A DNA stretch of 64,000 nt from Clavelina lepadiformis (lineage: Eukaryota > Chordata > Ascidiacea > Aplousobranchia > Clavelinidae), in assembly GCF_947623445.1 (NCBI RefSeq), contig NC_135245.1:17057501-17121500 (forward strand). The letters run 5' to 3'. A model generated the notes under the pieces. That model had not been told where the DNA came from. It did not search any database and worked only from the letters and a program-made list of their open reading frames with translations. Made by a program: the position numbers and the translations under genes. Positions 1,271-60,505 of this stretch are shown piece after piece. The stretch's first letter is position 1, and each line of letters starts with the position of its first letter.

Positions 1271-3952
1271 TTTTGTTTATGCAACTTAAAACGTTAAAGG
1301 AATAAATTGAATCTTGTATGCATTGTTAGGCTGTGCATGACATTCTTGTTAAAATGATATTGCATGACTTTATGTCTGTTGCTTTTAATGGACTCTACAG
1401 TCAATTCTTGGTTTTACTGATATGACGTGTGAGCTGTAACTGTTTGTAGTGAAATGGTGAACTTCTAACATTTGTCTCAATTTATTTATATCTACTAATC
1501 TTAAATTATTTGTTCTTTCATTATAGTTGCTGTGAAAAATATTGTTTGCACAACTACATCATACTGGATTTTTGAAACCAACAATCCAACACGACATGAT
1601 AACGGTACCTTATCCGTTGAAGCTTATTCTTTCGCCCAACCTTTTAGATACGTCGTTTGTTTAAAAGTATTAAAAAAATTTTTGACCATTATTAAAATCG
1701 AAAAAAATGTACCAACACTAATTAATTTATAGTAATATTTTCAATAACCATGGTGAGCTACAAAATTGTGAAGCTAGGAAAAATGGATAATTTTAGTGTG
1801 TTGCATTATTGCATTGCCTAATGCTGCTTATACGCATTCGAAAAACTACTTCTTCATCCTGTAGTTATCATTCAAGAATGTCAGTTTAGATGCACTCTAC
1901 CCAAGGCTATGTAACTACACATCGTAGTAGTTGAGTTATAAACAGACTTCGTCCTAATAGTAATATATAGGCCAAAGCAAATTTATGAGCACAAAATTTA
2001 GGACACAAAATTGCAAACTCAATCTGGTATTATGGCTTTGTATTACTGAAACATTTAACAAAATGCAACTAAATATAATAATATGGCTTAATTTTTGCTT
2101 TTTCGACTTATGTATAGTGAATTTAACTAATTATAGCTTTAGTGGCCGTGCTAGTTGTTACCAGCAAATATTAACGTTATTTCTCTTGAAAACGTTTTAA
2201 GCCTTTTCAGCTTTGTCAGTTTTTCCTGTTCATTGGTGCGTGTTAGTAGCTACTGGCTTAATTTTTCATCCCCACTGCGCTTTTGATAAAATTATGAAAT
2301 GATTGATTGATTAAGCATGAACTGCTTATTAATTGTATAAATTATCTGACACAATGCTTTGTAGTAGTACAGACTATTAATTTCTCTGCAATTTTTCCGA
2401 AATGTATTTAATTTAATCCAAGTCATTGCATAACAGGTCTCATTAAGGTTTTATTTAATTTACAATTTGCTTACCAATATGTCAGTATTTAAAGGTTTGA
2501 CGTTAGTTTCCTTGTCTTTTTATAGCCTATTACTAATACCGGTAGTTAACAAGATTATGGCAATGTCTGCATATATGCCAGTGTATTAACACTTAACCTG
2601 ACACCATACCGATTGCAAAATTTGATTCACATAAGCTTTTAATATTTACTGCGTTGTGTCTGGTTTTGGAAGCATTTCTTGACACCAAGTCATATCCTGA
2701 TTTGCATGTTGCGATTCCGGTTGTGAGTAATAAATGACGTAATGCATGATTTGTGTTTAGTGTTGTTATTGTAAACCAGTTGTGTTTTAGTAATTCTAAA
2801 ATTTGTCGCAGGCCTGAGCATATACATTTTTTATATATAAACCATAATATAAAACATTGTTAAGTACGCAATAGTGGTGAAATTTGTAAGTCTTTGACAA
2901 ATAATGCTTTGTAAAATAAGAAAAGTTCTGTTTAAACCTGATAATCATAGTGTCTGCAAATGTTCATTCGGCTTGGTACATTTTATTTTGTTTTCTGTTT
3001 TAATTTGAAACAAATTTTTATAGTTGTACTGTATATATATATATATATATTCATTTAGTAATCAAATGAGTGTACGTACATTTAAAGTACTTGTACATGT
3101 TGTGTAAATTTTAGATTTCAAGATCGTGCAGGATATGTCGATGAGACAATGACCATTATGGCCTTTAACATAGACACTTTGCTCATCTTAAGTGCTCTTA
3201 AAACATTGTTTCATCTCCAAAATTAAATTTTTGTTTGAGTCACTTCTAGTCACCGCTAGGCTCATTACTATTTATAAGTAATGGAACTTGGTGTACTGAA
3301 CACATTGGTAACATACAGTATTCTGCTATGCTCACAAGTACCATTTCATGTTTACTAGTATATTTTTTATAAGCTTACAACATCAAACATGAAAAGGGCA
3401 TTAGTGTGAAAGAGTCTGTTATGTGTGGTATATTATGTAAAACCGTAACTGGTTTTTTATTTTATTGTTATTATTTTATATTTTATGTGTCTCAAAGATA
3501 CATATAATATATATATATGTATAGATAGATAGATAAACATCAGTTTATATCTTTGCTTTAAAAGTATTTATACATCTAAGTCAATAGTGACAGGCTCAGT
3601 ATGTTTGAAACATTATTTAGCTTTGGCCATTGCAGAAATAGAGTTTTATTGGCTATGTTCAATTAATACTGCGATTGATGAAAGAATGATACTGCTATGT
3701 GTTTTACAGAAATATTTAAATTTGTTTAAACTGAATACCACTATAGTGCTATGTATGCGTAAAAGTCATAGTCTATATATATAGTTCTTAAAACTACTCC
3801 AAATTTATTTAAATCACTCAAAAAATTTAAAACTGCAAGCCACATAAGTTTTTTAAATTTTGCAGTGTCCATATAATTTTTAAACAAATCTTTTCATTCC
3901 AAACTTTTAAGTGGTACTGGAGTAGGTTGACTTTAACTGCATATTTCCTGCC

Positions 3953-5576
3953 ATGACCGAAAAAATTCGAGATGGAATTAGCCGTGAGCTGCGCTATATG
4001 GAATACAGATTGCGTAAGCGTCGCTCAGAACGTGATAAAAAGAAGTCTAAGAATGATAACACGAAGAATTATCCAACAATGGCTGATCAAGATGAAAACT
4101 TTTCTCCAGAATTGAAGGAAGCTCTTCCATCTACTGCAGGAGAGGAAGACCTCCAATTACAAGTTAGTATTTTTTTAGAATTTCATGATTTTTTGAACCA
4201 CTTTGTGAGGCACCTGCCAAAAAAATTGGTAGGAATATCAAACCATTTCAGAAGCAGAATCATTTTATTGAATGAAAAGCTTGCCTGTATTTTTTGCAAT
4301 AAATGATCTCGCTGTGTTTGTCATATTATATAGCTATTGCTTCCAGGTTGCACTTGCCATGAGCAGAGAAGAAGCAGCAGAAAATGAGAAGTCAGAAATG
4401 AGTGATAAGATTAAATTGGAAATGGCCCTGAAGGAGAGTGCTGAGGTTGCAGCGAAAGCTACTGCCAAGGTTACACCTTCCCATTCTTCATCATCGACCA
4501 ATAATCAAAAGAGTGATCCATGGGGAGGACCAGCACCGCAAAATACGCAAAACTCGTTTGATCCATTTGAAACAAGTGATCCGCCAAAATCATTAGTTAC
4601 CAATGGCTTTGAAAGTAATGCATGGGGAAGTGCAAGTGCGACTGCCAATGCCAATAACAGCATACAAAAACAAACTGCTGATCCGTGGGGGAATCAAAAC
4701 TCAGCCGGTGTGCCTGGAATATTGCCGCCACCAGCTAAAAGCGTTACCAAGAAAGTTAATCCGTGGGGAACATCACAGCCTGGTCAAAGCAACTCTGACC
4801 CATGGGGAACAGGACCCAGTAGTGCTTCTAATGATTTTGGTACAACAGCAAGTGACCCGTGGAGCTCATCAACACCAGCTGTTAGCAACATGGTTAATCC
4901 GGTATCTTCTCAAAATGATGTCACGTTCAATGCTTTCATGCAACAGAATGGAACAACAACAACCCCAAATGATGCCTCGGATCCATTTCCAAACTTCAGT
5001 CAGATGTCTATCCAACCACAACCCACGCCTGCTGCTTATTCCGGGCAAGATTGGTTGGCGTCAAACGTCCTCACTCCACACTCAATTAATGAACCGCAAC
5101 CTACAATATCCGACTTCAACGATAACAGTATAAATGATGCAATGACGAAGGAAAAAACAGGCTCTTTTCTTGGTGAAAATGCATCTCTGGTGAATATAGA
5201 TAGTTTGGTTACAAAACCTCCCACCACACATCCTTACATCACAATGAACACACCAACATCTGGTTCGATTGGAGCAAACCGCAACCCGTTCAATCAAAAG
5301 GGCCCATCACCATCACTTAATCAATTAAAAGGAAATAACCAGTCTGCATTTGCTGGACAACCAGCACCGCAGCTCCAATCTGTGGCAGGAACCACCGGGG
5401 CTTTCCAGGTGGGTATGCAGCCCAACCCTATGGTTGCAAATATGGCAATGGGTGGAATGGCAATGCAGCCATCATATGGTATGCCTCCCATGGCTGCGAA
5501 TGTGAATCCATTTGGTACTCCACAGATGACACAAGCTAACATGTTTCCTTCCCAGCAAAATCAATCCTTATTTTAA
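3953..5576 (+). CDS. Epsin, C-terminal exons (clathrin adaptor)
   Basis: Exons 3953-4162 and 4347-5576 join in phase 0 across a 184-bp GT-AG intron and end in TAA, giving 479 codons from the first ATG. Residues about 64-83 form a ubiquitin-interacting motif (EEDLQLQ, then ALAMSREEA). Four DPW motifs lie at roughly residues 127-240, with two DPF motifs that would bind the AP-2 alpha ear. LVNIDSLV near residue 351 is a clathrin box, and NPF motifs near 382 and 457 are EH-domain ligands. This order matches epsins, which link ubiquitinated cargo, clathrin and AP-2 at the plasma membrane. No ENTH domain, normally the N-terminal ~140 residues, is seen. The frame is open back to 3926, just after an AG, so the first exon may be internal with ENTH exons upstream of the window, or ATG 3953 may start a short isoform. 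The stretch before the UIM (residues 1-40) is unusually basic. Identification as epsin is firm; the start is not. Confidence 0.88.
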
Positions 5577-8500
5577 AGCAACGAAACCAGGGATAAACTC
5601 TTGAATTTAAAATTGTCAAGTTTTTTTGCTATTTGTAAATGATAAGAATTTGGCATACTTCATACTATTTCGATATAACGCAAAAAGGTACTGGCTACAA
5701 AATAACTATTCTTACACCGGGTATCTTTTAGTCTTGTGTGTACGAGAGGTTTTTCAACTTTATGTTTGTATTGGTTAATGTGCGTTTTGCAAGGTTTAGG
5801 CCGGTATAATCAGTCGTTGTAGGTAACCTAGAATGGCTTATGTCTGTTCAACACCAGCAAGCCAATAGATTGGATTAATGATTCATGTATGCCGAGCAAA
5901 GTACAGCTATTAAGTTCGACATTCTTCTTATCAACTTGCTAGCTGCTGCAACGTAATAAGGTTGTTGTCTTTGTGCTTTTTGTCAAATTGATCTTGCTCT
6001 TCGGCAAGATGGATTTGAAGCAATCTTTAACCATTCGCTGTGTCTTCGGCTAATGGTTATTGTTGCGTATTTCGTCGTTACGGCTTCGGTTAATCGTTAA
6101 AGCCAATAAATTGCGGATAGCTACGAAATCTAGCGTCATTGTGCCGTGAAAAATTCCTGGTTTGCAATTTGCCCAAAAATAAATTACGAAGGAAGTCGTT
6201 GGGCAACGAACACTCGCCGTAGCACGTTTGTGCTTCGAGTTCGTAATTGTTTTATATTTTCCGGTGCGCCGCTGCAGCATTTTGATTGCTTTGCCTGCAC
6301 AAGCTTGTAACTGAGGCTGACCTGGGTATTTACATTTTTGATTGTTTTAATTACCGCCTTTGAAAAGCGAACAATTGCATAATTTTCTCCTGTAAAGTAT
6401 TTCACAACGTAATAGCTTAAAAAAACGGAAAACTCTTTTGTTTTTGTCGGTGTATTACACATAGTTTGTGCATATCACTCGAGTCGCTTGTCGGTTCGTC
6501 ATTGATTGGAATTTTCACTTTAACGTTTGTATGTTCACTCGTGTTATTTGGTTGCCTTCAGTTTGAATTATCAGTCTTGTCGTAAACACTTGCACTTTTT
6601 GCTGGTTATGTTAACTTCGCATAATTGCAATTGTTGAATATACAACAAATTTGTAATTGGTGGTTTGTAGCTCCTACTTGTAATAATCATTGTATGTTAT
6701 TTCCCTGACAAAACCGTTCGCGTTGCTTGAATTCATTTCGTCATTTGACTTAGCCTGCGCCTACAATCCTTTATGAAGACTTAGCACATATTATTTAATG
6801 GTGGCCAATATTTTCTTGTGTATATATATATAGTTTCATTAATCGTGTATCGTTGTCTCTGTCATGTATTGTACATCCGTCTTTGTGCTCTATAAGTGAC
6901 AAGCAATTTACGGTTTACATCCGATTGCTGTGATTGGTGGAAACCGGTCCCGCCTTTGCCATCATTGTCCTGTTGAAGCTCATAACTGATTGGCAGCTTG
7001 TGCATATTCCACTATTTCTTTTAATTTAGTTACGTAATCGTCATGACTTAAATATTCGTGATAAATTCTTCTCATGTGTTTAAGGCATAACTCTAAGCGA
7101 ATAAATAAATGTCTGCATTGTAAACCGATGGATGTCAGGTTGCTGGTTTAATCGAAACATTCGATACGGTTTTGGAATCACAGCCATTTGTTTGCTCACC
7201 TTGTATGTATAGAAAGCTTACCCTGTACACATCACATACACTCTTCGGCGGGTTACGTACACATTTCGTGTTGTTATAAACCTGTAACAGATTATGTGAA
7301 AATGCTATGAATTGTCTTTGAAAAATTATTATCATTAAGACCATTTATAATAATCACTTTATTTCAGTGATGTAGTGCAATTTCGTTTAGTTAATTGTGT
7401 TGTAATTAATCTTGGCGCAAATGTAAGGTATTGGGATATAAATAGAAACGTGTTGAAATGGGTTGTCCTTGTCTTTTGTTTCTCATAGCAGGATCACTGA
7501 ACCGTATTTTCGGTCACGTGATTAGCACCGCGCCACCGATGCCACGTAATGATGATGCCAAGGGCTATCGTAGGGAAAATACGCAACCATGGCACATGAG
7601 TAAAAATTGCCGTAGCTTAAATTATTCATTGCGGCCACCCGAAAACAATTAAGCGTATTTGGCGGTAAAGGGTCATGTCTTCACAGCATTAACTTATTCT
7701 TTGTTTTACTTATTTGCTATTCTGTGGCTGGGCTTCTACCTTAATTCTTCACCAGGTAAACGCAAACCGCCAAAGAAGAATCCTTCTCACGCATTTAAGG
7801 AAGTTTCTTGACAAAAGAACTTTAAATATGAGAACTTACTTTGTTTTATCTCTACCAGTAGACTGACTATATTGGAATTATTCAGATGTGGTTGTATGCG
7901 CAAGCTGTGCCTCTTTAGCATTTTAACAAGTCCACTGTAAATCAAAAAAATGTAGCTGATTATACGATGTTTGCGTCCGTTTTGTTAGTTACAGTATTTG
8001 CATTAATTACATTATGGTACTTAGAATGATCTTATGAGCAATACATTGTTGTGAGCCGCTATACAAAAGATGCCTTTGTTCTTGCCTTCACACTGATGTG
8101 TGATTGTAGGAAAAGTAATGACGTAAACTCCCAGATGTTGTATCGTCCAGCGAGTATGTGCATAATGCATGTATATAATCACTTGCGGACGGCTTCGAAA
8201 CGTTTACATCGAATCCATCCCTGCGTGTTTACACAATTGCCATGTGGATGTCACGTGTTGAACTCAAATTAAATACGTATGCGGTGTTCTTGCAAAGCAT
8301 GCTGAACGTTAGAGGGTAGTTCAAGGTATAATGCTCGCCAAACGGTCAGTATTATTTGTTATGCGGTGGGATTTATTCACTTTGGACACCATTACTACCA
8401 TGTATGGTTTTCTAAAGTCATATGATAGATGACCAGCGGCCAAGTTTGCGGTTTTCCGAAAGTGGTGTCATACTTAGAACAAAGAAAAGTAGTGGTGCGT

Positions 8501-39774: not shown

Positions 39775-41037
39775 TAGGGGAGGGTGGGGTAAAGCGGACC
39801 ACCTAAGGCTTAATCGTTACAATTCATTGATTTTACCAAAACATTTGACATGTTTGTTTTGAGAGTTAACTCTAAGGTATTTCGCTAATTTTTGAAGTGC
39901 CCTTTTATTGATTGTTTGCTTTCTTACATAAAATTTTTTTGATTTAAAAGCACCTCCAATAGTCCACTTTACCCCACACATGTGTGGGGTAAAGTGGACC
40001 ACCGTAAGTTTTGAGTATACAAGGCAATTTGTTCCACATCACAATCAATTTATTTACAAATTGTCATCATAAGCGATTGTAAAATTGTAAATTAAATTGT
40101 AAGAGTCATATGACCATCGAGGATCAGGAGAAAAGGATCTTCTTCAGTTGGTTTAACAAAGGATAAAAAGTGCTTAAACCAAGAAGTAAAAATATCAAGC
40201 TGCATACACCCAGAAGGGTGGCATGAATAACCAGTGCCAGGGGGAGTTCCATCAAGCAATTCTGGTTTCATACGCTGTCGTGGAAATATGAGATAAGGTG
40301 GAACGTGACTTCCTCCAGCAGACATGCAAATCACTGCAGTGCACAAAGTGCCTCTTTCTGCTGAGGTAATACTTCCAACCTGCTTTTTCCCCTTCAACGC
40401 AAGCACCTTGGATTGCTTTGTCTGAACTGTCGTAATTCCAGTTTCGTCGACGTTGAACACATTGTGATGCTTAAAATGATGCAAGTCCATCACTTCTCCC
40501 AGGAGAGCAAAAAACTTGCCGACGCTCACACGATTAAACCCTCTAGTACGAGCAGCAGATGTAGGCTCCGGGATGCGAAGGCTTAATTGTGGATTGCGTT
40601 GAAGAAATCCACTTACCCAATCAGCACCAGCAAGTCTCTTTTCCATGTTGAACCTATGCTTAATATGATTTTTTTCTGCCAATTCAAATGCAAGCGATTG
40701 GAGATGTTTCCTAGTGACCCCAAAGAATCGCCGCTCAAGTTCGAGCACATGTGCAATTAACTCTTTTTCTTGGGCTTCGGAAAATGTGGAATGAAACCTT
40801 CCAAGACCCTTTTTGCTCCCAGTAGCATTAATATTTAAATACAAATAGTACAAAAAACGAATTCCGTGCCTTTTCTTGCTTTCTGTTCCACGTAACCTCG
40901 AATAGTGGCGTGTGCAATCACGTTATATCATACTTCACTAAACTTAGTGGTATCCGCGCGGTTAAAAAACTTTATTAAGAAAATAAGAGGGGTGTGCCAC
41001 TTTACCCCGTTGGTCCGCTTTACCCCACCTTCCCCTA
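39775..41037. mobile_element. Pogo-family DNA transposon (internally reduced)
   Basis: The 24-bp terminal inverted repeats start GGGGAGGGTGGGGTAAAGCG at 39777 and GGGGAAGGTGGGGTAAAGCG on the other strand at 41035, with one mismatch. Each is bounded by TA, the target duplication of the Tc1/mariner/pogo superfamily. Extra copies of GGGGTAAAGTGGAC lie inside, including a perfect 38-bp palindrome at 39962-39999 and another near 40990-41005. At 1.26 kb it is shorter than an autonomous pogo element of this type and carries only part of a transposase gene (40092-40853). It sits between an orphan exon 4 and the spacer leading to ST-6. Confidence 0.88.
40092..40853 (-). pseudogene. Pogo/CENP-B-type transposase, truncated
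   Basis: The 253-codon frame starts in the linker after the missing first helix-turn-helix (psq). It then shows the complete CENP-B-type DNA-binding domain (FSEAQEKEL, LAFELAEKNHIKHRFN, AGADWVSGFLQRNPQLSLR, TSAARTRGFN). The DDE nuclease core begins with NVFNVDETGITTV (first catalytic Asp) and reaches LLILDGH (second Asp), then stops four codons later. The third catalytic acid and the C-terminus are absent. The protein could not transpose the element; upstream DNA does not show a clear psq exon. Confidence 0.85.
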
Positions 41038-46999: not shown

Positions 47000-48286
47000 T
47001 CAAACTTGCCCAAAATTCAACAGTTTATACAAATTGTCAAAACTCAGATAAGGCCAAAATCTATAAAACTTGTAAACTCCAAATGCCCCAAGTCCTGCGA
47101 GAAGACTTATTATAACAAATGCTTCCTTCACCATCCTTTGCATCACCGGATGATTCTTCATTAAATCATTGTAAATCGATCCACCGATATTGGCATGAGG
47201 AAACTGTTTATCCGGCACTGGCTTATCAAGGAATTTACAAAGCGGTTCCCAACCTTCCTTCACGTTGTACACTAGTAGTTTGTCTTTTGGAGCGTTCTAA
47301 ACGAAAGCAGCAACAAGTTATAAAGATGAAACTTATCCTGGACTTACAATACCTTAAAGCTCAATTATTGATTAATATAAATTAATTACTCTTTGTATTA
47401 CAAAGATTCAGTAACTAACTCACAAAAGTATTTAACGAATACATCGCTTACTTCTTCTCCACTAATTCATAATTCTACATACAACAACAACACCTGAATG
47501 ACATCAGCGTTATGCTGGCGATACAGTCTTCTCATAACCATTTCGTTCACTGGAAGTCTCCAGTAGAAAATGCTAGGATTGCTTCCTGAAGTCGCCAATA
47601 CAACTTGACCTACAAGTGTAAGACGCAACAGATTCCTAAAAACTCTACAAATCTTTAAAAATCATGATGCTTTTCTTGTAAGTTAAAGTTCAAGACATAC
47701 ACTTAATATCTTAAAATGTAGCAATTAGAAATAGTATTTATAAAACACGATTTAACAGATAATCAAAGCAGTCAGACTTTCAAAAAGTAACAAAATGTAC
47801 AAAATAAATATACTCATTTTTCGTAATAATGCTCCAAATTTTCGACCCAATGGCGAATACATAAACATTAGACGAAGCATTGTACTTTTCTCCATTTCTT
47901 CAATTTGTTTGCGATAGCTCGGAAACCACGAATCTTCGTCTCTGGTTGTAAAAACGATCTAAATCATACCAAAATTGTGAGTATAAGATTATATATGTAT
48001 TTAATAATAAGTTACTAAACACAGAAGTTTCAACCTTGGCGTCTGGAAATGCCTCATGAATTTCCTTCCAGAAGAAATAAACAGGAGTGTCGATTGTTGC
48101 ATCGACATCTTTATACATCCTCTTGAAATCATCCACTGATCCTCCTTCTGTTAAAATTTTGTTCCAGTCCTTTCCCAAGTACCAAAAGTTTTCCACAAAA
48201 TCATAAACTTCATATCCGAGCTCCCTGAGAGCTATGTGCATCGATTTTGTTCCAGTTTTTGCGAAACCGGCAACTATAACTTTCAT
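47000..48286 (-). CDS. Putative sulfotransferase ST-7
   Basis: Exons 48035-48286, 47814-47958, 47494-47609 and 47000-47296 give 269 residues. Exon 3 (VVLATSGSNPSIFYWRL) is of the ST-2/ST-8 kind, while exon 4 (GGSIYNDLMKNHP) is of the ST-3/ST-4 kind, so the gene looks like a mosaic made by gene conversion or unequal exchange. All splice sites are canonical and no stop interrupts it. Confidence 0.88.
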
Positions 48287-49805
48287 GTTTACTGTTCCTT
48301 TATTTCTGCAAAGATATTAAACGTACTGGTCACATCTATCGACATTTACTTAAAACTTAAAAACTTTGTTTCTTGGACAACAGTAATACGTCCTAAGTTA
48401 AAAAAAAGAAACTCAACAAAGGTTTTCCCAACCAGTCCACTTCCTGTCAGCCGTTATGCTGTCCTACTGTTCTGCGAATGACTGCAGCATTTCAAAAGGT
48501 TTTCATGAAATACCAACTTCATCGCTTTTACTGGTAAGCTATAGCGCTTAAATGATTGCATAAACGTGGACTGTAAATAAATGTCACTAAATCAACATGG
48601 ATGTTGACCCAAGTTTTAAAGGTAATCCGATACGATGTTGCAGTAAATCTTAATGTTAAAATGGGTTCTAGATTTAACGTAATAGCGCCAAAGTAACAGT
48701 TATGTTGCCTCAGAATTATATACTTTCATATCGCTGGCAGGGAAACTTATTTCTAACAGATGCTGCTTATAAGTTTTTGTCGTATTTGTGTGGAGCCATT
48801 TCAGCCAGATCGATATCTTGTTACATATTACATGCAGTTACACAGTCGCTCGACAATATAAAGTAAGGCCAAGATATAAAATAAAACCTTAAAAAAATAA
48901 AGTATTAATAAAGTATTGTGCTGGTCCTCTTGCTTAAATTAACATTCAGAAACAGCCTGTAGCCGACTGCCAACTGCCCACGTCGTTTAATAATGCCAAT
49001 ACATCGGATGACCCTACAAATCCATTACAAACTTGATTCTGAATTCGAATGCTAGGACAAAATTACATTTTGAGTTCGTTTCATCAAATGAAGCATGAAA
49101 CTTGTCATTTTCTTCATTGCATTCTGAATGTTAAGTTGAACTTTTTAAGTGTTGTTCTTGTAGCAGACATTTCTTGCAATAAACAAAATGACTTTTCAAT
49201 GAGCAACATTAAATACTTTGTAAACTAGATTAAAAACCCAAAAAGAATTGAATCCACATACCATTTGATAAAACATAAATGAATAAAGCAATACTGCGAA
49301 TTTTATATATACCTACAATTAAGTTTTAATATCCTTTAAATTTTACAAGCAAGCAGTAAGCATTTATAATTCCTTTTCAAAAACACGCCAGACCTATCGG
49401 GGAAACGGACATTGTATTATTGACATTGACTTCTCCATATAAATCATATAAGTTTATTTATTGTTTCAGATAAAGAGATGACATGCAAAATATAGTTAGC
49501 ATGTGTAAATTCTGTCTGTTCGCTTTACTATAGATTCTACAAACATTTGCCATAGACTCTTCTTATTAATCAGTAAACAGTAGTCACTCGTATAACAAAG
49601 TTGAAAAGGAGCTCATCTACCGCAGTTGGTCACATAAACTGGTCGAAGGAATCAGTGCAACGATATTAATTTGCATGTTTTAGTTTATTTAAATTCTGGC
49701 AATGAGTTTTAGAAGTTTTTGTTTAAAAAGTTGCAATCACAATTCTCACACTTTTACACTAATTCTGGCTGTTAATGTTTTAATTGAAAAATCTAAATGA
49801 TAATT
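48287..49805. repeat. Shortened spacer of array unit 6
   Basis: Only about 1.5 kb. The standard spacer runs to about 49370 and then jumps straight to the standard 3' flank (CAGACCTATCGGGGAAACGG onward), skipping the exon-1 remnant and long 5'-flank block of units 1 and 5. This deletion brings ST-7 and ST-8 close together. Confidence 0.65.
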
Positions 49806-51074
49806 TCAAACTTGCCCAAAATTCAACAGTTTATACAAATTGTTAAAACTCAGATAAGGCCAAAATCTGTAAAACTTGTAAACTCCAAATACCCCAAGTC
49901 CTGCAAGAAGACTTATGATAACAAATGCTTCCTTCACCATCCTTTGCATCACCGGATGCTTTTGCATCAATTCATCAAACAGTTTCCCACCAATATTGGC
50001 ATGAAGAAACTGTTTATCCGGCACTGGCTTATCAAGGAATTTACACAGCGGTTCCCAACCTTCCTTCACGTTGTACACTAGTAGTTTGTCTTTTGGAGCG
50101 TTCTTAACGAATGCAGCAACAAGTTATAAAGATGAAATTTTTATTGGGCTTGCAATACTTTGAAGCTCAATTATTGATTATTATAAATTAAGTACTCTTC
50201 GTATTAAAAAGTTTCAGTAACTAACTCACAAAAGTATTTAACGAATACATCGCTTATTTCTTCTCCACTAATTCATAATTCTACATTCAACAACAGTACC
50301 TGAATGACATCAGCGTAATCCTGACGATACAGTCTCCTCATAACCATTTCGTTCACTGGAAGTCTCCAGTAGAAAGTGCTAGGATTGCTTATTGAAGTCG
50401 CCAATACAACTTCCTCTACAATTGTAACACACAACAAATCCCTAAAAACTCTACAAAGCTTTTCTTGTACGTTAAAGTTTAAGACATACATTTAATATCT
50501 TAATATGTAGCAATTAGCAATAGCATTTATAAAACACGATTTAACAGATAACCGAAGCAGTTAGACTTTCCAAAAGTAACAAAGTATGCAAAATAATTAT
50601 ACTCATTTTTCCTATTAATGCTCCCAATTTTCGACCCAATGGCGAGTATACAAATATTAGACGAAAAATTGTATTTTTCTCCATTTCTTCAGTTTGTTTG
50701 CGATAGCTCGGAAACCAGGAATCTTCCTCTCTGGCTGTAAAAACGATCTAAATCATCAAAAATTGTTAGTATAAGATTATGTATGTATTTGATAATAAGT
50801 TACTAAACACACAAGTTTCAACCTTGGCGTCTGGAAATGCCTCATGAATTTCCTTCCAGAAAAAATAAACAGGAGTGTCGATTGTTGCATCGACATCTTT
50901 ATACATCCTCTTGAAATCATCCACTGATCCTCCTTCTGTTAAAATTTTGTTCCAGTCTTTTCCCAAGTACCAAAAGTTTTCCACAAAATCATAAACTTCA
51001 TATCCGAGCTCCGTGAGAGCTATGTGCATCGATTTTGTTCCAGTTTTTGCGAAACCGGCAACTATAACTTTCAT
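49806..51074 (-). CDS. Putative sulfotransferase ST-8
   Basis: Exons 50823-51074, 50603-50747, 50300-50415 and 49806-50102 give 269 residues. It is the 5'-most member on the coding strand. Exons 3 and 4 are of the ST-2 type. The last acceptor is AAG instead of the TAG seen in every other copy, a weaker but legal site. One change in exon 1 (ALTELGY for ALRELGY) and one in exon 4 (QFLHANIGG for QFPHANIGG) touch otherwise invariant positions. No stop. Confidence 0.86.
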
Positions 51075-53116
51075 GTTTACTGTTCCCTTATTTCTGCAAA
51101 GATATTAAATGTGCTGGTCACATCCATCCTAATTTACTTAAAACTTAAAAACGTTTTTGTTTCTTTGACAACAGTTATACGTCCAAAATTTAAAACAAAT
51201 AAGTAACTCAACAAATGTTTTTCCAACCAGTCCACTTCGTGTCAGCTGTTATGCTGTCTTGCTGTTTGGCGTATGACTGCAGCATTTCAAAAGGTTTTCA
51301 TGAAATACCAACTTCATCGCTTTTACTGGTAAGCTATAGCCCCTAAATGTGTGCATAAACGTGGACTGTAAATAAACGTCACTAAATCAACATGGATGTT
51401 GACCTAAGTTTTAAAGGTAATCCGATACGATGTTGCAGTATATCTTAATGTTAGAATGAAATCTACATTTGTACGTAACAGCGTCGATCATAGTAACAGT
51501 TATGCTGTCTCCGAATTTATGCTTTCATATCTCTTTATAAGGAATTTTAATCTTCATCAGGAAACTCAGTTCGAACAGCTGCTGCAAAAAAGTTTTTTGA
51601 AATGATTTCGAAAATTTTGTTATTTTGAAAATGTTTTTGTTTTTAGAAAAGCTCAAGTTATCCTCTCATCTCCTTTTGGTGAGTAATTTTGTTCCAATAA
51701 TCTTTTAAGCATGAGAAAAGTTTTCCACAAAATCACAACCTTCATATCCGAGCAACCAGAGAGTTATGTGCATCGTGTTTTTTTCAGTTTTTGATAAGCC
51801 GGCAACTATAACTTTCATCTCTGTTTTCTCTATACGGCTCTGTTGTTTCTGCAAATATACTGTTTGTTATTTTTTAGTTACAGCAATGTACAGCTATTCA
51901 GCCATTTTGTGCGAATTTTAATCAATGAATAACAGTTTAATATTAGTGAAACCCGGCATCGTTGTTAAAGTTACGATAATTCATCATGCTGTAATAACCA
52001 ATATGTCCTAAAATTTGCACTTAGTGTAAGTTTGTTTGAAAAACAGCTGACAAACATATGGCTTCCTTTGATTGAAGCATGATCAATTTCGGGAAGAAAT
52101 TTCTCCGGGAAAGTCAAGTAAAATTTGCACCCAAAACATTGAATTTCATTGCGTTCAGGCAAGTATCTTGAAGCATGTTGATTGAAGTCTTGAAGCCACC
52201 ATGCAGGTGATGTAAAAATCAAGTCGGCCGATGAAAAGTAAATCCAAGAGCTATCCATACAACCGGCAATAGTAGTTACAAGTATAATCTGCTGTGTAGC
52301 GACGCAAGATTTGTTGTAACTAACTCACTGCACTTTGGTTCCAGTTTACAAATGCTATAGTAAGTAAAAACTTGAAAGAAATCAACAACTTCCAGTCTAA
52401 CACGTATGAGGTTTTTTTTAAGCAGAAGCGTTCTGAAAGTGCACAAAATTTAGCAACGCAAATGCATTTTTGATAAGTTGAATATGTTAAAGTACTGTAT
52501 ATTATAAGTAGACAACCAAATGCGGCGAACAAACTGGCATAGTTCTAGCCTCCATCATACAATGTTGAAAGCATATTTGTACGTCCCTTTATAACGATTT
52601 TTATTGCTGAGATACATCCACTGTGGTCTTTCACTAAATAATTTCTTAACATTTAAAATAGACCTGCTATGTGCTTTGCTGCATATGGAAGATTTATGAT
52701 TTATGATTTTTTTTGTTTAAAACATCTTTGGTTAAGTTAAAGAGTATTTACCTTTCCTTAGCCTGCTGTTATTACTTACTATTACTATTTATATTTTCAG
52801 TTTTTGCTATTATGCTGGTTGTTACCCTTTGTTCAAATTTTTTTATAATGATACTGCAAGCTTTTTAGTATAGCATGACAGGACATAGACTGATAAACGA
52901 CGATTTGCAACAAATGAAAACGAGTTAAATTAGCAGCATGATCAACATTGCCTTTTCGTCAATTATTTATATGCGTGTAGAAGAAATTTCAACATTAATA
53001 CATTATTTTTTGTTTATTCTCCAATGCAACGAATAATTATGCAGCGTATATGAAACCTTTTTTTAATACACATTGTTTGGTTATTCTGTACATGCACATC
53101 ATCCCGCCGCTTTATT
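51075..53116. other. Array edge and spacer before the lysozyme gene
   Basis: Standard array spacer persists to about 51480 and then decays. A degenerate exon-1 piece lies at 51713-51818. A 95-codon minus-strand frame at 51971-52258 begins MDSSWIYFSSADL and shares a short DNA stretch with array spacers (GAAGCATGATC at 52073-52083, compare 23699-23707); no family is recognised and I do not call it a gene. Nothing else is supported. Confidence 0.45.
51713..51818 (-). pseudogene. Sulfotransferase exon-1 remnant (c), badly decayed
   Basis: From ATG 51818 the first residues MKVIVAG are kept, followed by an altered loop and a recognisable LGYE and DFVENFS. Several substitutions and no downstream exons. 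It marks the former upstream edge of the array. Confidence 0.65.
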
Positions 53117-56100
53117 TCAATAACCTTGCGTGCGGTAATACTTAGCACGTGCTATGACGTCGTTGGAATAGTCGTTACCAGTGGTTCCAATGTCTAGTCT
53201 TGCCCAGTTTCGAACATCGCCTAGCCCGAAATTGTAGGCAGCCACGCCTCCCTGTAGCTGCCGTGCTCTGGTCCAGCTTGGGAATTTAGCCTGAACCTTT
53301 CGGATGTTGCTTATCAGAATTTCTGTGCCATGTCTTATATGTTCTTCTGAATAAGGGCCGCCTTTAAGACGATGATGATGACGCTTGTCAACCTGGTAAA
53401 ACATTTGGTATTTAAGTTGAAGTATTAAAATGTGGACAGTATTTCTCAGATAAATACAAAACACTTGATTAGCACTTGTAACTAACATGTCAACCATCCC
53501 CCATTTTACCTGCATAAGTCCGTAGCCATTCCCGTGATCTCCGAAACCCTTGCTATCAAGCGCTGCTCCCGCTCGACTTTCACGACTAATTATTGCTGTG
53601 TATGAATGATCTGTTCATGTTTCTTTATGATAGGCATGATTATGTATAAGTTATTTGGAACGATACCCGCTTTCATTCTTGTACATTTATGTATTTTTTC
53701 ATTGTTTAAACGATTTTTAAATCAGTCAACTTTACCAGCAATAATAGCTCCATCAAAATTTAAATCGTTTGCTACTTTTGCGATCAGGTTCTTGTACTGT
53801 TTCATTCTCATTAAGTCGGTGTTTGCCAGTTTTTCGGAAGCTCTGACACCTTTCATAAAAAAGGGCCAAGCTTAGATAAACATCTCCACAAAAGATTGTA
53901 AAGCAATTTCATTACCACTGCTTCTAGCTGCCAAGATTACAAGTTTGCATATTTTTCCTGCTACTTTACCTGCATAATCTAATCGATCTTGCCGAGCAGT
54001 TCTTTGTGACGCTCCTGTTGGATTTAAGTTAGCGATGTCGCCAAGAGTGCAGGAGATACACTGCCCTCCGCCTGTAAAGTTAACAATTAGCTCTAAGCTT
54101 TAAAAAAAACTACCAAGTGCAAGATGCTTATTACTCATACCTGATGGAGTTGATGATGCAATGCAACATCGCCTGGAGCTGGGTCCACCACAGAGTCCAG
54201 AAAGATAGCTTCCAGGACAATGAATGCTATCAAGTTGACATTGTCCTCCTCGGACCGTGCATTGGCTATCACTGGCACCTAACAGCCAATGATTAAATTA
54301 TGAATACAAGAAGGGCTATAGGAAGACTATAAAATTAGTATGTGCAAAAGTCACGCTAAATTCTTCAGTCCAGGAAACTTCCCGCTCTTACGGCTCGTCA
54401 CATAACCATGTCTGCTTTTCTAACTTTTAATAACATTCACTCGAACATGTGTAGAATAAAAACAACGTTCTTCATTATCCGTCAATAAAAACACCACTCC
54501 TTCCAACACAAACCCAAAACTTAAAATAAAACCAAATTCCCATCACCACGGCGAAGTTTACCGTAATTAATAGCGAGATAAGGAATCGTGGGCAACGTAG
54601 CCTGCCTTGGTAAGGAGTTGTATTGGGAAGGGCGTAAAACGTGTAAGGTACGTGTATTTAAAACTTACTAAAATAAAAACAATCAAAAGAAGCACAAGTG
54701 GCACAAAATATTCGTACTAAACAATACGAAGTCAGACACCGTGGGTGAAACATTTCTGAATATACATCTAAAACAAATCTGTAGTGATGTAAAACAATAG
54801 TGCGTTGTTAAACTACAACACGCCTGCTATTATACAACATACGTGAAACTTTGTGACACAAAATCTATATATAGCCTACTTGATGGAGTTGATGATGCAA
54901 TGCAACATCGCCTGGAGCTGGGTCCACCACAGAGTCCAGAAAGATAGCTTCCACGACAATGAATGCTATCAAGTTGACATTTACCTCCTCGGACCGTGCA
55001 TTGGCTATCACTGGCACCTAACAGCCATTGATTAATTTATGAATACGAGAAGGGCTATTGGAAGATCACAAAACCAGCAATTGCAAAATGCTGATATATA
55101 CTTGAAGGAGTTGACGCTTCAACACAGCATTGCCTCGTAGTAGGTCCGCCACAGAGTCCAGAATGATAGCTCCCACGACAAAAATTGCTGTTATGTTGAC
55201 ATTTTCCTTCTCGATTCGTCCACGGACCATCACTGGCTTTCCACCGGTTTTCGCGAATGACGCCTACAAAGAAATGATTGAATCATAAATACAAGAACTG
55301 TTTCAGAGGGGATTTCTTTCTCAAGCAATCCCGAACGTTTTCTGAACAATATCTAAATGTAAGATTATTTAAAGACGCATACGGAACATAATAATACATT
55401 AAGTGCAAATGCGCTGTGAATTTTTGTATCCTTACATGGAGTCGAAGCGCATCTGAAGCAGCATCTCCGGTTGGAATCGCCTCTGCACAAGTTTCTTCTC
55501 ACGCCATTCGTGCAGATGTTATATCTCCAATCCACGCATTTGCCACCGAGCCTTTTGCACGAGGTATCGGTGTTTCCCACAACTATATATACCGAAAAAA
55601 GTTTGATTTATTGTTTATTCGAAATCTTAAAAAACAGATTCCCCTTTATTCAACTTAAAACTGCTAAAAACGGATGTTTTTCTATGCATTTCGCCCATTT
55701 AATCCGGAAACTCCGCAATCCGATCTGGGCGCAATAATATAGACACGGTTATGTAACTAAACAGAAATAAACACCCGCTAGTCTGGATTATGAAAAGTGT
55801 TGCATATTTATACGTCAAGTTTTCATATTTTTTACACTTATATGTTCGTTTTTGGTCCAGCCATTAACCAATTTTACTTCACTTAAAGCCGACTGACTTG
55901 GATGCACATAGATTTATAACAGCTATTTTCTGTGTTTCAATGGACAGTATAGTCATATGTAATGCACCCTATATCACTCGTATATTGATTCAATACAGAA
56001 AACAAACAAGCAAAAGCATATAATTGTTTTGTTTCGTAAAGCTGATAGTTTCTCTCAGGCGGCAAGTTTATCTATATACATATTCCTTTTCAAGTGTCGA

Positions 56101-56520
56101 TCAAGACAGTCAGTTCTGTTTTATTCAGTTTATCCTATCGCTTTGTAATGAAATGCACTGCAACAATATTTCGGTTAAATCTGGATACTTATTCACATGT
56201 AAATCTACATTTTTCGACGAAACAAAATGATCCGACTTAGGAAATCTCATTGTATACGCTCGGAAATAGTTTTGATGGTAAAATTTAGAATTGCCTTTTT
56301 AGAGATCGTGGTAATCTGTAATCTATTTTATCCCAATAGCCTACACAAATGTAATTATACGGTATACAATTGTGATCTGAACAAAACTTCTAACGATAAA
56401 ACTTAACGCGTCAGCCAAGAAGCACAAATTGATTAACATGTTAATACACATTAACATGTTACTCATCTTACCAAATATCGCAGCACAGAAAACCATAACA
56501 TACACCGGATGAAATTCCAT
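53117..56520 (-). CDS. Goose-type lysozyme with four N-terminal defensin-like domains
   Basis: Nine exons join to 1,212 nt (403 residues): 56472-56520, 55436-55582, 55102-55263, 54880-55017, 54141-54278, 53970-54071, 53736-53849, 53510-53595 and 53117-53392. All use GT-AG ends and compatible phases. Exon 1 encodes a signal peptide ([16 protein letters not shown]). Exons 2-5, all phase 1-1, each encode a cysteine-rich domain whose full form is C-x6-C-x6-C-x8-C-x7-CC, close to beta-defensin spacing. Exons 6-9 are a complete g-type lysozyme domain: [12 protein letters not shown] start, ISRESRAG with the catalytic Glu, [17 protein letters not shown] with the two conserved Asp, and GGVAAYNFG. The family hydrolyses peptidoglycan, so a secreted antibacterial or digestive enzyme is likely. 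The domains may target cell walls or act alone; that is inference. An AATAAA directly follows the stop. Ordinary g-lysozymes are about 200 residues, so half of this protein is added modules. Confidence 0.85.
54141..55263 (-). repeat. Tandemly duplicated defensin-like exons
   Basis: Exons 54141-54278 and 54880-55017 are almost identical, including about 40 bp of the upstream intron, with a 739-bp period. Exon 55102-55263 is an older paralogue sharing the CRGSYxSGLCGGP core and flanking intron similarity. Uniform phase 1-1 boundaries mean each duplication keeps the frame. Confidence 0.85.
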
Positions 56521-58666: not shown

Positions 58667-60505
58667 TTAAGTAAAGCTGAACAACCTTTCGCATAAAGCG
58701 TTACGAAGAACAAAACAGAAATCGTCATCGGCTTTAGGATCCGGAACATTCCTCAGAGTTCCGCAGTTTTGGTTTCCATTCAAATTATCGGGTTGATTTG
58801 TAAACCAATGCACGTTTTCAGGAGTAGCCGCTGTCCCATCCACCCACTTCCAAACTCCTTCTTGTTGAGCGTCAGTAAGCCCTATCCAAGGTGATCTGGA
58901 TGTTCCAGATGGCAATATGGCCTGCAAGAGTGACCTGCGGGTGGAAAGGGTATTGTCTACAATCTACATTATGTTTGTATTCAATTTTACTTCGTGGAAA
59001 AGACTAAACGCAAATTCAATTTGCAAACGCGGAAAAGGTACTTTTGTGATCCTTGCAACGTATAACAGCATACGAAATTGGATGCTTGTGTGAATTATTA
59101 TATACAGATTAGTTATAAATAACTGCAACCCGAATCACACAACAATCAAGCGAACAATGTTTAACGGTCGCAGTTTATTATTTCTAAAAACGTCAACCTG
59201 GCAAATGAGCGAAGCAAAAAGCAAAACGAGTTTAAAACTCAACTTTAAACCGTACTTTATCATGAACAATTGTTTCCCATTCTTTTTTATAACAAAGATT
59301 ACCAAACAATATTTTCCTAGAATTTCATACAATCGAGCATGATTGTATGTGCCAACCAGAGAACCATGTTTACTGAGATAGAGAGAAGAAGCGAAGAGAA
59401 GAGAAGAAGAGAAGAGAAGAGTGTTTGAGAGAAAAAAAGCCGGAAAGAAAAAAAAATGATGTAAAATGTTTCTCTCTTACCAGCTAATTTAAAATCTAAA
59501 TCTAACTTTGGATCTTTTTTTAATATTTTATGTCTGCTGCCCACCGGAAATCACCAGCACGCTTGTAAAGGTTGTTATTTAAAGGTTTGTTAAACTTTGT
59601 AGATTTTCAAACACGATTTTAATATGCTGCATAATTAATATGCAATTATAAACATATGTTCTGCAACTTTCCGGTTAGATATATTTGACACAAAATGTTA
59701 TAAAATAATTATAAGTGAAGCGTCTGTAATTTATATGTAAGTTCTTAAAACAATGAACTTAAGTATAAACATTAAGAGGAAACTTATTAATACGTTCACT
59801 GTCCAGTAAGTTCATGTTTTTTGCAAATATAATGAACTTGCAAAATATCTTATTCTGTTCAAACATTGACACCTTAATGTGTTGAACTTAGGCCCTTAAA
59901 GCAAAACGCCAATACATGTAAACGTACTGTCGTGTGTTAAGATCTTTCATTCCGTTCACCGCCAAATCACCTCCCATACTTGTGCAGATATCACGACTTG
60001 CTTGCCAGTTTTGCTCCGTTGTTGCAAGGAAGTATTGGTAGCCGTTGGTCACCATCATAGGTATCCATTTTAGGTCTGGAATTCAAAAACAGAATGTTTG
60101 TTCAAATGTTTTTGATGTAATAGAACAAAGTTATAACTCACAATAGTTAATGAACCGCAAAACAAAAAATGTAAGTATATAGCGAATGTATTATAAATAT
60201 ACGTGTTCTCACCATTCTTTATACTTAAAATGTCAGCCTGTATTTGTTGAATTACCTCTGGACTGGCACCATCAATTCCTGGATTGCCCTGAAAAAGTAA
60301 GAATAAGTTAAACGATGATAAACTTTGCTTTTATTGCAACAGCAAAAATTATAAAAAGTTAAACCATTTCTCCTTTGGCTCCCATTTCTCCTTTGTCTCC
60401 CATTTCTCCTTTGTCTCCTTTAACTCCGCACTTTCTAAATAAACCGCAGAACTGGCTCTCCACCGCGACGGTCCCCACCAGCATAAGGATGATGACAGAC
60501 TTCAT
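58667..60505 (-). CDS. Collectin-like C-type lectin, gene B
   Basis: Exons 60365-60505, 60213-60288, 59928-60075 and 58667-58934 (phases 0, 1, 2) give 210 residues. After a signal peptide (KSVIILMLVGTVAVES) two cysteines flank GLFRK. About nine collagen triplets follow (GVKGDKGEMGDKGEMGAKGE, then continuing across the exon join as GNPGIDG), then a short helical neck and the lectin domain. WIGLTD, WKWVDG, the QPD motif followed by NLNGNQNCG, and DDDFC with CERLF mark the ligand and disulfide positions. It likely trimerises through the collagen and neck, is secreted and binds glycans. Exon 2 is 76 nt, exactly as in gene A, so the two are paralogues split by the sulfotransferase and lysozyme genes. 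The GDKGEM repeats are DNA-level repeats too. The first exon has a TATATAAAA-like box about 195 bp upstream of the ATG. Confidence 0.87.
58935..59927. other. Last intron of lectin B, with purine-rich tract
   Basis: A 993-bp intron without coding signal. Bases 59374-59447 are almost pure GA on the plus strand (GAAGAGAAGAGAAGAAGAGA and similar), a strand-asymmetric low-complexity tract. Confidence 0.65.

Follow-up and report, generated by a model that had tools for sequence, protein, structure and literature searches.

Two groups of described proteins are among the closest to the gene analysed here. PLys, from the placozoan Trichoplax, consists of an N-terminal domain of cysteine-rich repeats (CRRs) followed by a GH23 lysozyme, and lyses B. 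subtilis but not E. coli (PMC12855814). Its CRR part is reported to raise the melting point and stabilize the enzyme, with lower activity at ambient temperature, where the protein minus that part has a threefold higher specific activity; the CRR-free protein needs about the same dose to lyse B. subtilis (100 vs 130 nM), neither form acts on E. coli, and the abundant form begins at Ser100, the CRR part having been cleaved (PMC12855814). The second group comprises rusticalin of the ascidian Styela rustica and rusticalin-like proteins, in which the CRR motif Cx6Cx6-7Cx8Cx7CC was described and a tandem pair of repeats after the signal peptide is combined with a C-terminal M15-like peptidase (PMC6339383). 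The likeness of the CRR to beta-defensins is already in print, with HHpred matches reported to the beta-defensin fold and to tick carboxypeptidase inhibitor, and a "perforate and digest" action was put forward speculatively for rusticalin in 2019, together with a regulatory alternative (PMC6339383). A survey counts 382 proteins with the motif, of which 301 are fungal and 69 metazoan, and names phage lysozyme, amidase, and M15 as partners; its main text makes no use of the terms goose, SLT, transglycosylase, transmembrane, or lectin (PMC7379824).

The window is a 64,000 nucleotide stretch of the Clavelina lepadiformis genome (contig NC_135245.1, positions 17,057,501 to 17,121,500), and one of its genes encodes an enlarged relative of the described CRR lysozyme, with twice the repeat number of PLys. 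Like PLys, the protein has a candidate signal peptide, CRRs, and then a GH23 domain (57% identity over that domain), compared to which PLys carries two CRRs instead of four, lacks an eight-cysteine module, and has the cysteine spacings 6,5,9,8,0 and 6,5,8,7,0. A profile of 22 modules from the C. lepadiformis genome matched both PLys repeats (24.2 and 8.8 bits), and the PLys N-terminal stretch as a whole scored 33.1 bits, a score reached by none of 1000 cysteine-preserving shuffles, the best of which gave 18.2. Rusticalin and its relatives share the motif and the tandem pair after the signal peptide, with the M15-like peptidase in place of the lysozyme (PMC6339383). Since a g-type lysozyme with two CRRs has been described in PLys, the CRR-GH23 architecture is known rather than new, and the suggestion in the first-pass annotation that the module architecture was undescribed did not stand, the rusticalin CRR and the CRR-GH23 combination of Trichoplax PLys both having been published. 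The gene extends the CRR lysozymes from placozoans to a chordate, by gene-structure evidence, and documents growth of the array by exon duplication. In keeping with an ascidian host, a cellulose synthase match above cut-off (E 2.8e-5) occurs at one place in the genome, ascidians being known among animals for this gene; Glyco_hydro_6, its fusion partner, gave no match in a search whose controls were likewise without a match.

Gene model and lysozyme domain

The gene model occupies 56520..53117 on the minus strand and comprises nine exons and eight GT-AG introns, reading 403 amino acids and a stop in one open frame, with introns in phase 1 after exons 1-7 and in phase 0 after exon 8. Along the predicted chain a candidate signal peptide is followed by four cysteine-rich modules and a g-type (GH23) lysozyme. 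Exon 1 (56472..56520) carries the start codon and, in a hydrophobic stretch, the candidate signal peptide, and ends in phase 1. Exons 2-5 encode a single module each and are bounded by phase 1 on both sides: a type A module with eight cysteines, the last cysteine codon of which is split by the following intron, in exon 2 (55436..55582), and type B modules in exon 3 (B1; 55102..55263), exon 4 (B2; 54880..55017), and exon 5 (B3, a tandem copy of exon 4; 54141..54278). A CxxC linker and the start of the GH23 domain lie in exon 6 (53970..54071), and the domain continues through exon 7 (53736..53849), exon 8 (53510..53595), with the catalytic Glu in ISRES and the Asp86 equivalent, and exon 9 (53117..53392), with the Asp97 equivalent in VDK, the C terminus, and the stop codon; an AATAAA hexamer abutting the stop codon (53111..53116, minus strand) is a candidate polyadenylation signal. 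The model thus predicts one protein with the CRRs directly N-terminal of the GH23 domain, and the earlier proposal was right in the single gene model and the order of domains.

Residues 223-403 matched solved g-type lysozymes of six different sequences (best E 4.7e-62), and the GH23 domain matched Pfam SLT above cut-off. Alignments retained the equivalents of Glu73, Asp86, and Asp97 (goose numbering). The claim of a complete g-type lysozyme with all catalytic acids holds over the full domain. By homology and its intact acids the domain would cut the MurNAc-GlcNAc bond of bacterial peptidoglycan. The vertebrate enzymes of goose, cod, and ostrich share the domain and the three acidic residues at 54-59% identity, compared to which their solved chains lack N-terminal modules; the view that g-type lysozymes are normally single-domain is accordingly right for solved vertebrate enzymes and not for all animals. 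The window domain contains no cysteine beyond the CxxC linker, and the two usual internal disulfides of g-type lysozymes, the pairing of which is given in PMC12855814, are therefore impossible in this enzyme.

Seven LysG loci were identified in the genome, two of which carry CRRs, namely the window gene and a paralogue at C8:6.35 Mb (C8:6.3475-6.3570 Mb) where A-B modules precede LysG exons. The paralogue has Ser, then Asp, at the Asp86 position and retains both cysteines of one usual disulfide (on the usual pairing). Neither the four loci on C3 nor the fragment at C6:6.675 Mb showed CRRs in the 9.9 kb covered for each. The fragment is a relative of the last two exons of the C8 paralogue (86% over the last exon) with the other exons absent, and the C3 copy at 433 kb contains an in-frame stop. 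In a tree of 10 rows (two of seven inner branches starred; one row with X at the in-frame stop), three CRR-bearing rows and three CRR-less vertebrate rows formed a six-row set that excluded the four C3 copies (97/97). A clade of CRR-bearing lysozymes of their own was unsupported, and the tree is compatible both with inheritance of the CRR-GH23 joint from early animals and with more than one origin.

A contig scan gave one bacterial relative, a deltaproteobacterial MAG protein (47% identity) whose single frame (2605-3549, plus strand) encodes PG_binding_1 (E 5.9e-11) ahead of a g-type lysozyme domain of animal-like sequence. Such myxobacterial lysozymes fall inside the animal clade and have been read as transfers from animals (PMC12855814).

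Cysteine-rich modules in the window and across the genome

The type A module has eight cysteines spaced 6,7,8,7,0,2,4 and the type B modules of exons 4 and 5 have six spaced 6,6,8,7,0. Exon 3 encodes a type B module with five cysteines, the first being replaced by Trp (TGG, 55220-55222). The rusticalin motif is exact in exons 2, 4, and 5 and lacks its first cysteine in exon 3. The earlier description of four cysteine-rich modules ending in CC with near-defensin spacing was therefore right in the number of modules and their defensin-like pattern, except that module 2 is short of its first cysteine. Beyond residue 20 the predicted chain contains 27 cysteines, and this odd number would be expected to leave one thiol either free or bonded to another molecule. 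The copies in exons 4 and 5 share 92% identity over 212 bases, intron included; 4 of 139 positions differ on the exon side and 12 of 71 in the intron next to it (Fisher p = 0.0006), the pattern that coding constraint predicts. The A-B-B-B array with its recent exon duplication is new.

Judged by the motif, and by the use of the term CRR for the PLys repeats in PMC12855814, the window modules are the published rusticalin CRR. Searches of Pfam, NCBIfam, and PDB gave them no named family. Pfam Defensin_beta matched 2 of 22 modules (best E 0.029), below its cut-off, and none of the eight families matched did better; a search of the whole genome with PF00711 yielded nothing above cut-off (best E 1.06). 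Against PDB, up to E 10, the module profile had two matches, to beta-defensin 8 (E 1) and midkine (E 2.1), and a seven-row profile of A-B pairs, PLys included, had none at all, tick carboxypeptidase inhibitor included. Beta-defensin disulfides are paired 1-5, 2-4, and 3-6. The CRRs resemble beta-defensins and the tick inhibitor in the six-cysteine pattern ending in CC and in the fold similarity reported in PMC6339383, and differ from them in lacking a significant sequence match and in varying charge. The beta-defensin likeness proposed for the modules is thus upheld by the cysteine pattern and weak in sequence.

The genome was searched with four single modules, whose match counts are lower bounds, and loci were fetched from those searches. 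A module profile (E up to 0.1) found 35 modules in 17 fetched loci, the window's four included, with scores that are not independent as the profile was built from 22 modules of these same loci. The 35 were sorted into 15 places, read by exon and frame rather than as complete gene models. Besides the window gene (four CRRs) and the A-B lysozyme paralogue, these were ten places where A and B are followed downstream by M15 exons of the same strand (one at C1:11.40 Mb, the other nine at C1:5.48-5.57 Mb), a type A module by itself (C1:5.560 Mb), a gene with six CRRs and a transmembrane stretch (C8:4.197 Mb), and a gene at C8:19.417 Mb that has C-type lectin pieces and a trefoil domain (E 1.7e-11) besides A-B, a stretch rich in Thr, and a transmembrane stretch. 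New among these are the A-B lysozyme paralogue, the ten loci with A-B beside M15 exons, the one with A-B next to C-type lectin and trefoil exons, and the six CRRs that precede a transmembrane stretch. At one place within C1:5.48-5.57 Mb, 3.3 kb separates A from B, which makes their pairing conjectural, and no CRR was found by the profile search (E up to 0.1) beside the M15 exon at C1:5.4987 Mb. The four M15 exons scanned singly all fell below the cut-off of Pfam Peptidase_M15_4 (E 0.00026 to 0.0069) and matched complementary halves of that profile.

The predicted A-B intron splits the last cysteine codon of A (T|GC or T|GT) in all nine pairs with both sides read, i.e., those of the window, the C8 LysG, six M15 genes, and the lectin gene, with the A side alone read in a tenth; the donors of the introns after A exons are GT. 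The window pair shares 55% identity with the pair of the M15 gene at C1:11.40 Mb, compared to 48% with that of the second LysG, so that the pair does not clearly follow its enzyme, the sequences being short and the difference small.

Several of these loci have features of their own. The stretch C1:5.484-5.570 Mb is a cluster of nine rusticalin-like CRR-M15 places plus the lone type A module, which is identical to the type A at C1:5.5526 Mb. A cysteine is missing (replaced by Tyr) from the B module at C1:5.5679 Mb as well. At C8:4.1925-4.2024 Mb (4342-6384 of the stretch, plus strand), five of the six CRRs are net negative, and the exons are phase 1 where read. C8:19.412-19.422 Mb (2300-5565 of the stretch, plus strand) holds a receptor-like gene with several C-type lectin pieces and a short tail after the transmembrane stretch. 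The receptor-like CRR genes may be undescribed; in titles and abstract openings, mostly outside subscription journals, no published combination of CRR, C-type lectin, trefoil, and ascidian was apparent.

Role of the module array

On balance, and by a narrow measure of confidence, we favor a secreted GH23 lysozyme that is stabilized by its A-B-B-B array and probably kept at the bacterial wall by it. Phase-1 exons would have built the array, beginning with an A-B pair like those that adjoin M15-peptidase and receptor-like exons and continuing by duplication of the B exon. Spliced as predicted, the enzyme would be secreted and its GH23 domain would cleave peptidoglycan; the disulfide-rich array would be an accessory region that stabilizes the enzyme and probably associates with the wall, and may be cut off at maturation, as in Trichoplax PLys. 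Such a protein could serve in immunity or feeding. Wall association is suggested indirectly by the partners of the CRRs, which include wall-cutting enzymes of two unrelated kinds as well as receptor-like genes, and by the bacterial relative in which PG_binding_1 precedes GH23, an analogy of position from one contig. Counting against the favored reading are the five other LysG loci without CRRs in the fetched stretches and the window module lacking a cysteine. Moreover, PLys without CRRs is more active and its dose on B. subtilis hardly changed, so that wall binding is not needed in PLys (PMC12855814).

A broader and distinctly more tentative proposal is that the A-B pair is a portable unit for recognizing the bacterial wall, encoded by one phase-1 exon per module and placed on a muramidase, on M15 peptidases, and on transmembrane lectin-type receptors, which would make it a pattern-recognition domain unrecognized so far. 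With the same module pair beside two unrelated kinds of wall-cutting enzyme and in receptor-like genes of one genome, a few natural proteins offer the means to test what CRRs do (bind, stabilize, inhibit, or kill).

The strongest competitor, possible though clearly behind the favored reading, is that the array is no more than a pro-region that stabilizes and inhibits the lysozyme and is taken off before the enzyme acts, with no bacteria-binding role. This is the behavior measured in PLys, with its higher melting point, lower ambient activity, and abundant form starting at Ser100 (PMC12855814), and it would suit a window GH23 domain unable to form its two usual internal disulfides (again on the usual pairing). 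It fits less well with the C8 paralogue, which has CRRs despite both cysteines of one such disulfide, or with the CRRs of the two transmembrane-stretch genes, one with lectin exons, where no enzyme was noticed in the listed frames (at C8:4.197 Mb, from frames alone) and where a pro-region would make little sense.

That the modules are beta-defensin-like domains which damage membranes, the protein perforating and digesting bacteria as the first-pass annotation envisaged, is improbable. As an idea the two-part action was not new, having been proposed for rusticalin, and it draws on the cysteine pattern, the reported HHpred matches to the beta-defensin fold (PMC6339383), the weak Pfam and PDB matches, and the charge of the four window modules, all net positive at +1 to +7. 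Across 20 of the 35 modules of the genome, however, net charge ranges from -6 to +7 (11 negative, 2 neutral, and 7 positive), 11 of the 16 tabulated outside the window being negative, and PF00711 found no genome match above cut-off. PLys without CRRs is also about as lytic on B. subtilis, and E. coli is untouched by either form (PMC12855814). From the suggestion that the modules bind or damage bacteria and the enzyme cuts the wall, the damaging part is thus disfavored by these charges and by the activity of CRR-free PLys.

Integrity of the locus and neighboring features

That exons 2-5 belong to an independent CRR gene, read ahead of a lysozyme gene, is very unlikely. All exon phases fit in the model, and the gap between exons 5 and 6 is only 69 bases, scant space for a gene end plus a new first exon. 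The order of CRRs and then lysozyme also recurs in the C8 paralogue and in PLys, for which peptides of the N-terminal domain were detected (PMC12855814). Least probable of all is a decaying or mis-assembled copy, to which the lost cysteine of exon 3, the odd cysteine count, the close likeness of exons 4 and 5, and the in-frame stop in another LysG copy might point, as frame, splice sites, and catalytic residues are all intact and the intron adjoining exons 4 and 5 diverges more than the exons.

Other features were noted in the window. A C-type lectin exon (PF00059, E 6.7e-13; 58667-58963, minus strand) adjoins the lysozyme gene. Two Sulfotransfer_4 exons (47900-48316 and 50766-51104, minus strand), alike in 98 of their first 100 residues, are a local gene duplication, and a shorter frame at 51705-51866 is similar to them by eye. 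A transposase fragment at 40092-40922 (minus strand) matched DDE_1 above cut-off and HTH_Tnp_Tc5 just under it.
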